Origin: Mucilaginibacter mali
GTDB lineage: Bacteria; Bacteroidota; Bacteroidia; Sphingobacteriales; Sphingobacteriaceae
Assembly: GCF_013283875.1 (NCBI RefSeq)
Contig: NZ_CP054139.1
Location: 4,092,001 to 4,156,000 of the forward strand
Direction of reading: 5' to 3'
Length of the DNA: 64,000 bases
Shown here: positions 32,469-37,766 of the stretch, piece after piece
How the letters are laid out: every line of letters starts with the position of its first letter
Numbering within the stretch: the first letter of the stretch is position 1
Translations under genes and position numbers: made by a program
Notes under the pieces: model-generated
What the model saw: only the letters and a program-made list of their open reading frames with translations
The model's database searches: none
Told to the model about the DNA's origin: nothing

Positions 32469-33218
32469 ATGATCAGATGCCTGGTAGTTGATGATGAGCC
32501 TTTGGCCCTACATATCATCGAGGATTATATAGCTAAAACACCTTTTTTAACGCTGGTAAAAGCCACCACCAACCCTATTGAAGCGCTCACCATAGTGCAG
32601 GATGGCGGGGTTGACCTGGTTTACCTCGACGTGCAAATGCCCGAATTGACCGGCATCCAATTTTTGCGGATAGCCAACGGTAAGGCCAAGGTGATATTAA
32701 CCACCGCCTACCCGCAATATGCACTGGAGGGTTACGAACTGGATGTGATAGACTACCTGTTGAAGCCCATCGCTTTCGACCGCTTTTTTAAATCGGCACA
32801 AAAGGCCCAAAGCATTATACAGCCGGCAACCAAAGCCCCGGCATCGGAACAGCAGCCAATTGTGGTAGCCGCCCCTGCACAACCACAGGATGATTTCTCG
32901 CACGATTTTATCTTTGTTAAAACCGAACATAAAATTCAGAAAGTTTACCTGCACGATATTCTTTATATTGAAGGGCTGAAAGATTATATCTCCATTTTCA
33001 CCACGGCCGAGCGCATTATTACCCTGCAAAATATGAAGAAGATGGAAGATGCCCTGCCCGATCGGCATTTTGTGCGGGTGCATAAATCTTACATCGTAGC
33101 GCTTAACAAAATTGACAGTATTGAGCGTTCCCGTATCTTTATCGGCGATAAAGTGATCCCTGTGGGCGATACCTACCGCGATCAGTTTTTTAAGATGATC
33201 GAGGATAGGAATGTGTGA
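32469..33218 (+). CDS. LytTR-family response regulator, 249 aa
   Basis: The receiver domain has acidic D8-D9, phosphoacceptor D54 in YLDVQMPEL, and LKPIAFDRF after the fifth strand. A glutamine/proline/alanine-rich linker (about 115-140) joins it to a LytTR DNA-binding domain at about 145-245 (FVKTEHKIQKVYLHDILYIEGLKDY, MKKMEDALPDRHFVRVHKSYIVAL). It would bind direct repeats near regulated promoters. It forms an operon with the kinase, two bases apart. Confidence 0.95.
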   Translation: MIRCLVVDDEPLALHIIEDYIAKTPFLTLVKATTNPIEALTIVQDGGVDLVYLDVQMPELTGIQFLRIANGKAKVILTTAYPQYALEGYELDVIDYLLKPIAFDRFFKSAQKAQSIIQPATKAPASEQQPIVVAAPAQPQDDFSHDFIFVKTEHKIQKVYLHDILYIEGLKDYISIFTTAERIITLQNMKKMEDALPDRHFVRVHKSYIVALNKIDSIERSRIFIGDKVIPVGDTYRDQFFKMIEDRNV

Positions 33219-33227
33219 GTTATTTTA

Positions 33228-33346
33228 AATTAAGCGTAGACGCTCAATTAGAAGTTGCGGTAAGCGTGGACGCTTACCGCTGCGTAAAAACGGCACAGTG
33301 AAGCGTCCACGCTTCACTGCTTTCCTAATTAAGCGTCCACGCTTAA
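33228..33346. repeat. REP/BIME cluster 1: four GTGGACGC-core palindromes
   Basis: Four palindromes share the core AAGCGTGGACGCTT. A (33228-33249) has flank ATT and is imperfect. B (33257-33280) has flank GCGGT and is a perfect eleven-base stem. C (33296-33319) has flank CAGTG. D (33327-33346) has flank ATT. A-B run in one orientation (GG at the centre) and C-D in the opposite (CC), so two two-hairpin units face each other across 15 bases. The cluster ends eight bases before the RAYT stop. Confidence 0.9.
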
Positions 33347-33353
33347 TTTAATC

Positions 33354-33875
33354 TCAAACAATAATCTTTAAAGGACTATCCGGATTAGCACTACTATACC
33401 AATATTCGTGGGCCGAACCTACAAAACCCGCTTTAACCGGATTATTGTGAATATAATCTATCTTTTGCTGTATAACATCGGCCGAATATAATAATACAGG
33501 ATGATTTCCATTTTGCCATAATTGATGATGAGCATTCCGCGGATTATTTGCTCCTGCCCATTCAAATGATCTTAACAGCCAATCCCGTCGACTTTCCTGC
33601 AAATTATCCTCTATCAGTTTAAACAATTGTTTAGATGTGTAGGTCTTAAAATCGCGGAGAACATCCCCCAACCGACCGTCTTCAACATTGGCTACAATAT
33701 GCAAATGATTGGTCATTAATACGTAGGCATAGATATTGAGTTTTTTATTCTTTTGACAATATGCTAAATTTTCTATGATTAGATTGCTATAGATCCGCCT
33801 TGTAAAAAGATCTATCCAGTTGGTTATAGTTAGGGTAACAAAATAAAGTTCATCGGTTGGTGCAGTGCGTGACAT
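33354..33875 (-). CDS. REP-associated tyrosine transposase (RAYT, Y1_Tnp family), 173 aa
   Basis: It belongs to the single-strand HUH transposase family related to IS200. The HUH metal site is N56-H57-L-H59-I in YVLMTNHLHIV, and the catalytic tyrosine is likely Y141 in KIDYIHNNPVKAG. I start at ATG 33875 (MSRTAPTDEL); an ATG 36 bases upstream adds a doubtful leader. It lies between two clusters of matching palindromes (33228-33346 and 33917-34162), as expected of RAYT enzymes that process REP elements. No second copy of the gene is in the window. Nothing suggests it is broken. Confidence 0.92.
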   Translation of the reverse strand: MSRTAPTDELYFVTLTITNWIDLFTRRIYSNLIIENLAYCQKNKKLNIYAYVLMTNHLHIVANVEDGRLGDVLRDFKTYTSKQLFKLIEDNLQESRRDWLLRSFEWAGANNPRNAHHQLWQNGNHPVLLYSADVIQQKIDYIHNNPVKAGFVGSAHEYWYSSANPDSPLKIIV

Positions 33876-33916
33876 TTTTATAAAAATGCAGATTTCACTT
33901 TTATATCGCAAGTAAA

Positions 33917-34162
33917 AATTAAGCGTGGACGCTTAATTAGAATTTCAGTGAAGCGGGGACGCTTCACCGGGCGCGGTTTATTATATGCAGCAGTAAGTCC
34001 TGTGCAGCGGTAAGCGTCCACGCTTACCGCAACTCCTAATTAAGCGTCCACGCTTAATTTAATCCGAAGTATTATTTTTATCAACAACTTCAATATATAC
34101 AAACTTAAAAATTAAGCGTGGACGCTTAATTAGAAATACGGAGAAGCGTGGACGCTTCACCG
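33917..34162. repeat. REP/BIME cluster 2: six GTGGACGC-core palindromes
   Basis: Six palindromes: E 33917-33938 (flank ATT, GG centre), F 33948-33967 (flank GTG, imperfect), G 34007-34030 (flank GCGGT, CC centre), H 34038-34059 (flank ATT, CC), I 34110-34131 (flank ATT, GG) and J about 34143-34158 (GAAGCGT stem, GG). E-F and H-G face each other around a 39-base spacer. I-J is a single unit ending 14 bases before the dnaE stop. Confidence 0.9.
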
Positions 34163-34175
34163 TGCAATTCAATAA

Positions 34176-37100
34176 CTACGCCAGTACCGCCTCCATATTC
34201 GTCAACGCCTGAATATCTTCTAACAGGTCGTCGCTTGGGTTTACCTTGTAAGTTTTTGATGGCAAATCAACCAACAGGGCTTCCTCACGGTCGCGTACCT
34301 GGAAACGGAGCGTACAGTTTTTATTAGGATAACGATCGTTATTTACCTGTACCATGGCTTCCAGACTTTCCAGTAGTTGGCTGCTTAGCACATGCAGATC
34401 CAATATCACGGTGATGGATTTGGTAAAGCGGTCGCGCAGTTCGGATAGCAGGTTAATGGTGTTGATACGCAGGTCCCAGTTATCCTTTTGGCGGAACTTC
34501 TCTTCGATATTCCCTCTTACCTGCACAAAAAAGCCCTCGCCCAGCAGGTTACGGAATTTAATATAATCATCGCCAAACAGCGCAAATTCGTAGCTATCGT
34601 TATAATCCTCCAATACAAAAGTACCGAATGGCTTACCCGTTTTAGTGGTTTTATGCTGTACGTTAGCCATCAAGCCGCCAATGCACAGTTCGCCTTTTTT
34701 GCGTAGTTCGGCAAAGGCGGTCATAATGTCCTCTCCACCCTCTGCCGAGCGGGCTTTTTGCATGGTCTTCAGGTCGGATACACGCGCGTTACAATATTTT
34801 ACCAGTTCAAGCTTATAGTTATCCAGCGGGTGCCCGGTAAGGTAAATGCCGATCACATCCTTTTCAAACTTCAGTTTCTCTATCAGCGCCCATTGTTCGC
34901 ACTCCGGCATGGCAGGTTCAGGGATAAACGACGCAATATCACTCCCGCCACCAAACAGCGATGATTGCGAGCTGCTTTGCGTATTTTGGTAATCGTTAGC
35001 ATATTTGATCAGGCGTTCGATACCTGTCAGGATACCGTTTTCCGTCTTAGCGAAGAATTGCGCGCGGTGCAGGTTAAAAGCATCAAAGGCTCCGCCATAA
35101 ACCAGGTTTTCGTACGATTTTTTATTGACCGTACGCACATTGCTGCGCTGGGCAAAATCATAAACGGTTTTATACGGGCCATTGGCTTCGCGTTCTTCAA
35201 TAATGCTTTCTACCGCTTTTTCACCCACACCCTTTACGCCAGAAAGCCCGAAACGTACCTCGCCCTTTTTATTTACGGCGAACGAGTTACCGCTCTCGTT
35301 AATATCCGGGCCAAGTACCGGCACGCCCATGCGGCGGCACTCTTCCATAAAGAAAGAAATTTTATCGATACTGTTCTGGTTATTCAATACCGATGCCATG
35401 TATTCGGCAGGATAATGTGCCTTTAACCAGGCGGTTTGGTAAGCCACCAGCGCGTAACAGGTAGAGTGCGATTTGTTGAACGCATATTGCGCGAAGGCTT
35501 TCCAGTCGGTCCATATTTTGGTCAGTTTATCTTTGGGGTGGCCTTTGGCCATAGCACCGTCCATAAACTGGGCTTCCATTTTATTAAGTACCTCTATCTG
35601 CTTTTTACCCATGGCCTTACGCAAAACGTCGGCATCGCCTTTACTAAAGCCGGCCAATTTTTGCGAGAGGAGCATCACCTGTTCCTGGTACACGGTGATA
35701 CCATAGCTTTCTGCCAGGTATTCTTCCATGTCGGGTAAATCGTAAGTAATTGGCTCGCGGCCGTGCTTACGGTTAATAAAGTTAGGGATATACTCTATCG
35801 GCCCCGGGCGGTAAAGGGCGTTCATGGCAATAAGGTCCTCAAATTTATCGGGCTTCAAATCGCGCAGGTACATTTGCATACCATCACTTTCAAACTGGAA
35901 CGTACCGTTGGTATCGCCGCGTTGGTAAAGTTCAAAAGTAAGCTGATCGGTAAGCGGTAAGGCATCAATATCAATATCCTCGCCATGGTTCTGCTTGATC
36001 ATGCGCAGCGCGCCTTTAATAATGGTAAGGGTCTTTAAACCCAAAAAGTCCATCTTGATAACGCCCGCGTCCTCGATCACACGGCCATCATACTGGGTAA
36101 CCAGCAGGTCCGAATCTTTAGCGGTAGCTACGGGCACGATGGTGGTCAGGTCATCGGGTGCGATGATGATGCCCGCCGCGTGTACGCCGGTATTACGTAT
36201 AGATCCTTCCAGCTTTTCGGCCTCGCGCAGTACTACGCCTTTCAGGTCTTTGCTTTTGTAGATCTCCTGTAGTTCGGGTACCTGTTCTATCGCCTGTTTC
36301 AGGTTGATACCCAATGTGTCAGGTACCAGCTTTTTCAACTGGTTCACATCGCTCAGCGGCATATCCAGCACACGGCCCACATCCTGTATACTGGTGCGCG
36401 CGGCCATACTACCGTAGGTAATGATCTGCGCTACCTGGTTCTTGCCGTATTTGTCAACTACGTAATCGATCACCTTTTGGCGGCCCTCGTCATCAAAGTC
36501 TGTATCGATATCGGGCATCGATTTACGATCTGGGTTCAGGAACCTTTCGAACAGGAGGTTGTATTTTATCGGGTCGATATTGGTGATGCCGATACAATAG
36601 GCCACCACCGATCCCGCTGCCGAACCACGGCCCGGACCAATGAATACGCCCATATCGCGCCCGGCCTTAATAAAGTCGGCCACGATAAGGAAGTAACCCG
36701 CGAAACCCATAGTACGGATGGTGAACAACTCGAAGTTGATACGTTCCTCGGCTTCGGCGCTGATATCGATATAACGTTCTTTGGCACCGGTAAAGGTAAG
36801 GTGCTTCAGGTACTCCCACTGGTTCAGCGTGTCCGACTCGGCACCGTCGTGTATCTTAAATTCGGGCGGGATGGGATAGTTGGGCAGCATGATATCGCGC
36901 TTCAGCTTCAGCACATCTACCTTATCTACTATCTCGTTGGTATTATCTAATGATTCGGGCAGGTCGTGAAACAGCTGCCCCATCTCGGCCTGGGTTTTAA
37001 AATAAAACTGGTCGTTCGGGAAGCCGAAGCGATAGCCCTTGCCGCCTTCTTCGTCGGTTGCTATGGGCGTGCTCTGCATATCGCCGGTATTCACACACAG

Positions 37101-37766
37101 CAAAATATCGTGCGCGTTACTATCCTGTTGATCCACGTAGTGCGAATCGTTAGAGCAGATCACCTTAACATTATGCTTTTTTGCCAGTTTGAGCAATGCA
37201 TTGTTAATAATGGTTTGCTCGGGTATCTCGTGGCGTTGCAGTTCGATATAGTAATCCTCGCCGAACAGGTTGAGCCACCATTTAAACTCTTTTTCACCCT
37301 CTTCTTCACCCTGCCTTAAAATAGCCTGCGGCACCGAAGCGCCAATACAGCAGGTAGTAGCGATCAATCCTTTGTGATATTTAAGGATCAGTTCCTTATC
37401 AATACGCGGCCATTTGCTGTAAAGGCCTTCCATATAACCAAGCGAGCATAGTTTTACCAGGTTCTTATAACCTTCGGCGTTTTTAGCCAGCAAAAGCTGG
37501 TGTCGGCGCACGTCCTTATTCTCTTTAGTGAACTGCTTTTTATGGCGGTCTTCCACTACGTAAAATTCGCAGCCTACAATAGGTTTTACATTATGCTTGC
37601 CTGCCTCGGCCACAAATTTAAACACGCCGAACATGTTGCCATGATCGGTAATGGCCAGTGCTTTCATCCCATCGGTCGCGGCTTTTTTGTAAAGCTTGGA
37701 AATATCGGCCGCCCCGTCTAACAGGGAGAATTGTGTATGTACGTGTAAATGAGAGAAATCGGGCAT
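34176..37766 (-). CDS. dnaE: DNA polymerase III subunit alpha
   Basis: This is the replicative polymerase, family C. The PHP domain opens the protein (FSHLHVHTQFSLLDGA, residues 3-18) with its metal-binding HxH. The palm motif MPDIDTDFDDEGR begins at M417 with catalytic D419 and D421; GPGRGSAAGS and RDTNGTFQFES-type motifs are also present, and an OB-fold region lies near the C-terminus (KPFGTFVLEDYNDSYE). At 1196 aa the length is normal for DnaE. There is no sign of an exonuclease insertion that would make it PolC. The gene is bracketed by the RAYT repeats and the hairpins at 37871. Confidence 0.97.
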   Translation of the reverse strand: MPDFSHLHVHTQFSLLDGAADISKLYKKAATDGMKALAITDHGNMFGVFKFVAEAGKHNVKPIVGCEFYVVEDRHKKQFTKENKDVRRHQLLLAKNAEGYKNLVKLCSLGYMEGLYSKWPRIDKELILKYHKGLIATTCCIGASVPQAILRQGEEEGEKEFKWWLNLFGEDYYIELQRHEIPEQTIINNALLKLAKKHNVKVICSNDSHYVDQQDSNAHDILLCVNTGDMQSTPIATDEEGGKGYRFGFPNDQFYFKTQAEMGQLFHDLPESLDNTNEIVDKVDVLKLKRDIMLPNYPIPPEFKIHDGAESDTLNQWEYLKHLTFTGAKERYIDISAEAEERINFELFTIRTMGFAGYFLIVADFIKAGRDMGVFIGPGRGSAAGSVVAYCIGITNIDPIKYNLLFERFLNPDRKSMPDIDTDFDDEGRQKVIDYVVDKYGKNQVAQIITYGSMAARTSIQDVGRVLDMPLSDVNQLKKLVPDTLGINLKQAIEQVPELQEIYKSKDLKGVVLREAEKLEGSIRNTGVHAAGIIIAPDDLTTIVPVATAKDSDLLVTQYDGRVIEDAGVIKMDFLGLKTLTIIKGALRMIKQNHGEDIDIDALPLTDQLTFELYQRGDTNGTFQFESDGMQMYLRDLKPDKFEDLIAMNALYRPGPIEYIPNFINRKHGREPITYDLPDMEEYLAESYGITVYQEQVMLLSQKLAGFSKGDADVLRKAMGKKQIEVLNKMEAQFMDGAMAKGHPKDKLTKIWTDWKAFAQYAFNKSHSTCYALVAYQTAWLKAHYPAEYMASVLNNQNSIDKISFFMEECRRMGVPVLGPDINESGNSFAVNKKGEVRFGLSGVKGVGEKAVESIIEEREANGPYKTVYDFAQRSNVRTVNKKSYENLVYGGAFDAFNLHRAQFFAKTENGILTGIERLIKYANDYQNTQSSSQSSLFGGGSDIASFIPEPAMPECEQWALIEKLKFEKDVIGIYLTGHPLDNYKLELVKYCNARVSDLKTMQKARSAEGGEDIMTAFAELRKKGELCIGGLMANVQHKTTKTGKPFGTFVLEDYNDSYEFALFGDDYIKFRNLLGEGFFVQVRGNIEEKFRQKDNWDLRINTINLLSELRDRFTKSITVILDLHVLSSQLLESLEAMVQVNNDRYPNKNCTLRFQVRDREEALLVDLPSKTYKVNPSDDLLEDIQALTNMEAVLA

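Follow-up and report, generated by a model that had tools for sequence, protein, structure and literature searches.

A REP-associated tyrosine transposase of Mucilaginibacter mali, the double-hairpin repeats that frame it and their dispersal across the chromosome

We analyzed a stretch of 64,000 nucleotides of the Mucilaginibacter mali chromosome (hereafter the window; contig NZ_CP054139.1, positions 4,092,001 to 4,156,000), in which a short gene is surrounded by palindromes. The gene lies between two convergent neighbours, named from their sequences as a LytTR-type response regulator (32469-33218, + strand) and dnaE (34176-37766, - strand). The initial annotation had placed here a Y1 transposase with H57-L-H59 and Y141, between ten palindromes sharing a core; the translation bears out the first description and the array the second. 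The features are the following:

33225..33283, + strand: REP half A, with an imperfect inner hairpin at 33228-33249, the outer hairpin at 33257-33280 and the tag TGC at 33281-33283
33292..33349, - strand: REP half B, with the tag at 33293-33295 (GCA on the + strand), the outer hairpin at 33296-33319 and the inner one at 33327-33348
33354..33875, - strand: RAYT / TnpA_REP gene, 173 aa, a Y1 HUH enzyme of the subclass 2.6 type
33913..33972, + strand: REP half C, with the inner hairpin at 33917-33938, the outer one at 33948-33967 (one core mismatch) and the tag GGC at 33970-33972
34004..34062, - strand: REP half D, with the tag at 34004-34006 (GCA on the + strand), the outer hairpin at 34007-34030 and the inner one at 34038-34059
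34106..34165, + strand: REP half E, with the inner hairpin at 34110-34131, the outer one at 34139-34162 (one mismatch) and the tag TGC at 34163-34165

The ten palindromes have 14-nt cores at 33232, 33262, 33301, 33331, 33921, 33951, 34012, 34042, 34114, and 34144. Eight of these are exact copies of AAGCGTGGACGCTT in either orientation, and those at 33232 (AAGCGTAGACGCTC) and 33951 (AAGCGGGGACGCTT) have two mismatches and one, respectively. When up to two mismatches are allowed, the core gives 18 matches in the 64-kb window, for 0.47 expected, a number reached in none of 100 shuffles; there is no such match in the rest of the window, outside 33232-34157. The folding of the strand between 33225 and 33350 has a z-score of -10. 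Beyond what the initial annotation described, the palindromes are arranged in fixed inner/outer pairs with centres 30 bp apart, resulting in five double-hairpin units of alternating orientation. In each REP unit, an inner hairpin (I; AATTAAGCGTGGACGCTTAATT at the gene locus) is joined by a linker of about 10 nt, in which AGGA or AGAA is found, to an outer hairpin (O) built on the same core, and a tag, [G/T]GC, follows. Half A runs from inner to outer on the + strand. Halves B, where the linker reads TCCT (AGGA on the minus strand), and C both turn their inner side toward the gene, so that B-gene-C is an outer-inner-gene-inner-outer arrangement. The whole array can be written I'O' / O I [gene] I' O' / O I - I'O': an O-I ... 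I'-O' frame encloses the gene and a complete four-hairpin unit (34004-34165) adjoins it, in which halves D and E make up one complete REPIN. The tag is TGC in four of the five halves and GGC in half C. The repeat consensus does not have the GT[AG]G of canonical REPs at the 5' foot of the hairpin; the tag that is conserved lies on the 3' side of the outer hairpin, in the orientation adopted here, and is a GC after G or T or, rarely, A. Rfam has no family for this repeat.

The translation of the gene carries the motifs N56-H57-L-H59, W120-Q, and Y141-I-H-N-N-P, and an alternative TTG start at 33911 would give a protein of 185 aa. It passes the cut-off of the NCBIfam model NF047646 (REP_Tyr_transpos, REP-associated tyrosine transposase; 105.2 bits for a cut-off of 80) and falls slightly below that of Pfam Y1_Tnp (22.6 bits for 23). 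The AlphaFold2 model (mean pLDDT of 91) has as top match in structure comparison the TnpA_REP structure 4er8 (E 3e-7), followed by the ISDra2 and IS608 transposases. The enzyme thus combines an HUH motif and a single catalytic tyrosine in a Y1 fold, and H57, H59, W120, and Y141 are invariant among 27 homologues. All the motifs of subclass 2.6, or RAYT group 5 (NH[LIV]H, WQ, YIH[QN]NP), are present as NHLH, WQ, and YIHNNP, and by this signature the gene is a RAYT of that TnpA_REP subclass. Relatives are found in Mucilaginibacter, Flavobacterium, Bacteroidales, and others; the named ones of the same subtype belong to Mucilaginibacter, that of M. pineti being 81% identical over the best segment.

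A search of the genome for the core away from the gene, as the initial annotation had proposed, revealed many copies. The chromosome (6,044,097 bases in one contig) has 35 exact cores, for none of the reversed-pattern control, and the repeat occurs at 16 intergenic loci besides the gene locus, from 0.37 to 4.36 Mb. A covariance model identified 33 REP halves. All 17 loci inspected are intergenic, with genes called from simple ORFs and a codon score and one over-extended start corrected by eye; the adjacent genes are convergent in 8 cases, in tandem in 8, and divergent in 1. Most of the 16 loci have the form O-I-I'-O' and about 130 bp, i.e., two inverted REPs dispersed as one unit, or REPIN. 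The remaining ones are half units, or a lone outer hairpin between CCGCC/GGCGG, as expected from internal deletion. Hence, the palindromes that flank the RAYT are also dispersed across the genome. The tag of the dispersed copies is GGC almost throughout. The inner hairpin ATTAAGCG...CGCTTAAT was found in all four scored gene-flanking halves, in 8 of the 14 dispersed halves of the M. mali genome, and in none of the 56 halves beside RAYTs of other species, and a AATTAGGA-type linker is common to gene-flanking and dispersed copies. Such sharing of a species-specific inner hairpin points to spread within the M. mali lineage. Several copies have terminator-like hairpins beside them, separate from the repeat. 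Two REPINs (L007 and L023) have another dispersed repeat, TCATTGCGAGGAGCGTAGCGACGTGGCAATCTC...GATTGCCGCGCTATCGCTCGCAATGAC, just to their left, with similar copies at several places of the related genome G087, and a CATGCCGAACTTGTTTCGGCATCCC-type repeat adjoins two further loci (L001 and L009).

To assess the repeat at the genus level, we used 121 genomes, including that of M. mali. An orthologous RAYT (63-77% identity) is present in 26 of them, M. mali included, and is truncated or has a stop in a few. Where the flanks of the orthologues are readable, the same double hairpins are found with changed stems: among 46 REP halves, 98.4% of the stem cells are paired, and in 12 of the 19 stem pairs both partners have changed (122 cells of this kind, for 26 in shuffles). 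The covariation score is 0.41, compared with 0.11 for shuffles and at most 0.10 for slid alignments. A loop A followed by C and the GC of the tag are invariant in the consensus. As judged by eye, the inner hairpin is directed toward the RAYT gene at most loci with both sides readable, and the outer hairpin is the gene-facing one at three loci adjoining a pyrF-like gene. The lack of G-U pairs was considered as proof of a DNA rather than RNA structure and was dropped, since G-T counts as a mismatch in the finder with which the hairpins were collected.

Each of the 26 genomes that carry the orthologous RAYT has at least three REP halves, compared with 38 of the 95 without it (Fisher p = 3e-9, a value that ignores kinship), and the median number of halves per genome is 12 and 1, respectively. 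The exact core is present in 62 of the 121 genomes, and 55 of the 95 genomes without the orthologue have at least one REP half. G026, G075, G025, and others have 20-38 halves each without an orthologous RAYT, and G067 has 15-18 with zero RAYT matches of any kind. In G084, the RAYT is present as deleted fragments only, which is consistent with a gene lost before its repeats. The initial annotation had held that the link would not be functional if the palindromes occurred only at this locus and also in genomes with no RAYT. The former is not the case and the latter is, as G026 and G067 have the repeats without the RAYT of the window.

The association seems specific to the RAYT subtype. Four other RAYTs of the chromosome are 47%, 43%, 43%, and 29% identical to that of the window and, like RAYTs of other subtypes in other genomes, they are flanked by other palindromes. 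The core of the window is absent from all 18 loci of other-subtype RAYTs that were compared. Several of these have related AAGC...GCTT or CAAGCG...CGCTTG hairpins, which may allow cross-recognition between subtypes. Of 53 homologues, which belong in nearly all cases to other Bacteroidota, 39 have flanks that are alike as inverted repeats; this is so for 22 of the 311 mismatched controls. Strong hairpins occur in 41% of the near flanks and 2.4% of the far ones. Within the subtype, the TGC tag variant marks one RAYT clade (support of 99/95), a match that joint inheritance of gene and flank explains as well as selection.

Other RAYT loci of M. mali deserve mention. Two copies of another subtype (L033 at 3.9579 Mb and L034 at 0.9856 Mb) are identical at 684 of 688 positions, and each lies within a cluster of AACTGGCGCGAGTATGCAGC repeats, with unrelated sequence past the right end. 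As RAYT genes are described to occur in one copy and to be passed on vertically, an entire REPtron seems to have been duplicated here recently. At 5.268 Mb (L035), the 29% identical paralogue lies between several palindromes, of sequence TTCGTGAGGACACGAA and TTGCCTGTGTCCTCACAGGCAA, that seem to make up yet another REP family. At 2.5628 Mb (L036), a second RAYT of the window subtype persists as a relic (72% identity over 33 aa) by a decayed double hairpin.

For comparison at orthologous sites, we used G087, the nearest relative found, in which long stretches are about 80% identical at the DNA level. It has three REP halves and is without the orthologous RAYT. At 3.059 Mb, a REPIN separates two tandem genes of M. 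mali that are practically adjacent in G087, and at 0.369 Mb, a REPIN lies between flanks that are conserved in G087 and have no such element there. The element is also absent from G087 at four further sites, but these differ between the two genomes by additional DNA as well. No orthologous locus that could serve as outgroup for the 3.059-Mb site was found in 18 further genomes, so that gain in M. mali and loss in G087 cannot be told apart at these empty sites; searches with concatenated flanks were of little help, with only a few places scored in each genome. The RAYT locus itself does not lend itself to such a comparison, since a LytTR gene beside the end of dnaE was found in none of 29 relatives. 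In G087, an intergenic REP half (L272, near 2060-2130) corresponds to a CCAAGTTTAGCGCAGCGTAACCTGG palindrome in M. mali, which resembles those of other RAYT subtypes.

Taken together, the anatomy of the locus, the 17 intergenic loci, the covariation, the association with the RAYT, the match between subtype and palindrome, and the presence or absence of the element at given sites make it probable that the locus is a REPtron, i.e., a RAYT of subclass 2.6 / group 5 enclosed by the cognate repeats that it has disseminated, or still disseminates, through the genome. The REP-spreading system proposed in the initial annotation is thereby supported, at the level of sequence comparison, by dispersal, co-occurrence, subtype-specific palindromes, and empty sites. 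Two REPs placed head to head form the four-hairpin, non-autonomous REPIN of about 130 bp, and the same pair opened by the gene is the gene-bearing version, the RAYT sitting in an expanded REPIN copy. By analogy with IS200/IS605 elements and the TnpA_REP of Escherichia coli, a single strand of the repeat would fold into two hairpins and be bound by the enzyme, which would read hairpin, loop, and tag. Tyr141 would then cleave the strand and become linked to it, and the strand would be joined at a new site exposed as single strand. Three observations count against this reading: the many repeats in some genomes without an orthologous RAYT, the difference in tag between the dispersed copies and four of the five gene-flanking halves, and a copy number that is low relative to gammaproteobacterial REPs.

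The first two of these could also mean that a different RAYT of the same subtype, now lost, spread the dispersed repeats, and that the gene of the window is idle or has a host function. As the tags are GGC in the dispersed copies and mostly TGC at the gene, the present RAYT may indeed not have spread them, and the relic at 2.5628 Mb by its decayed double hairpin, as well as the deleted fragments of G084, fit such a history. We nevertheless consider it unlikely, as the species-specific inner hairpin and the AATTAGGA-type linker are common to both sets of copies, half C carries the GGC tag at the gene itself, and the gene is intact with all its catalytic residues.

It is much less probable that the locus is an ordinary IS200/IS605 insertion sequence with miniature derivatives, even if the gene lies between inverted hairpin ends that short, gene-less copies share. 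IS200 enzymes have a Y-x-x-x-Q tyrosine motif, according to the motif table of PMC6006769, instead of the Y-I-H-N-N-P of the window gene. Nor are there several near-identical gene copies: the gene is single, with paralogues 27-47% identical, its best fold match is TnpA_REP, and the repeats are far more numerous than the gene. Finally, a role of the palindromes as fixed regulatory or terminator sites that surround a transposase gene by chance is hardly credible: their strong folding and their position, always intergenic and mostly downstream of genes, would fit, but orthologous sites occur with and without the element, the composite architecture is strict with conserved outer tags, several copies have separate terminator-like hairpins, and the repeat goes with one RAYT subtype while other RAYTs have other palindromes.

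The REPtron reading invites comparison with known systems. In Pseudomonas, Bertels and Rainey reportedly described in 2011 two inverted REPs as a dispersed non-autonomous unit, and a RAYT paired with a REP family. The M. mali unit is likewise made of two inverted REPs and linked to a RAYT; in contrast, each Pseudomonas REP is one GTAG-type hairpin and the copies are numerous, whereas those of M. mali have two hairpins, are GTAG-less, and occur at 17 loci. The E. coli TnpA_REP (PDB 4er8) shares the fold and the HUH and tyrosine residues, and by analogy would share a single-strand hairpin substrate, but the M. mali RAYT is only 17% identical to it in the structural alignment; the E. coli enzyme, the subject of in vitro work (PMC8266576), recognises a GTAG-tagged, bulged hairpin. 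The TIRtrons (TIRYT; Di Nocera et al. 2013, PMC3733652) also have a RAYT-like gene between terminal inverted repeats. In the excerpt of that article, some repeats are double palindromes and dimers occur at other genomic sites, and the species named are mainly Proteobacteria and Acidobacteria; covariation, association, and empty-site data, all three available for the M. mali repeat, do not appear in it. Closest are the subclass 2.6 / group 5 REPtrons (Quentin et al. 2018, PMC6006769). The initial annotation implied that such a pair was new to Bacteroidota, which does not hold: as excerpted, that article assigns these RAYTs mostly to Bacteroidetes, with flanking structures devoid of GT[AG]G and copies elsewhere in the genome, and reports the GTAG-reading region as non-conserved. 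M. mali shares their enzyme motifs, host phylum, low copy number, and GTAG-less flanks. It differs in that the main text of the article describes the structures as just atypical and weaker, while in M. mali they fold as strong double hairpins, carry a [G/T]GC tag, and show compensatory changes.

Hence, this type of system is already known in Bacteroidota, and M. mali is a new, well-documented example with unusual double-hairpin repeats. RAYT biochemistry is built on the GTAG-type REPs of Gammaproteobacteria. In the genus, some 25 orthologous enzymes are available along with the sequence of their cognate repeats, which differ in stem, loop length, and tag, and with such varied pairs the recognition rules of the GTAG-independent group could be derived by partner swapping. 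The repeats also give a clear architecture to structures so far described, in the excerpt of PMC6006769, as merely atypical. More tentatively, and with the odds rather against it, the Bacteroidota RAYTs of this group may follow a distinct scheme of recognition, in which the GTAG-tagged hairpin gives way to two adjacent hairpins with a GC tag and a GGA loop that is strand-specific, and the gene is still mobile as an outer-inner-gene-inner-outer unit. If so, these REPtrons would be an extant intermediate stage between IS200-like elements and RAYTs that have been domesticated.
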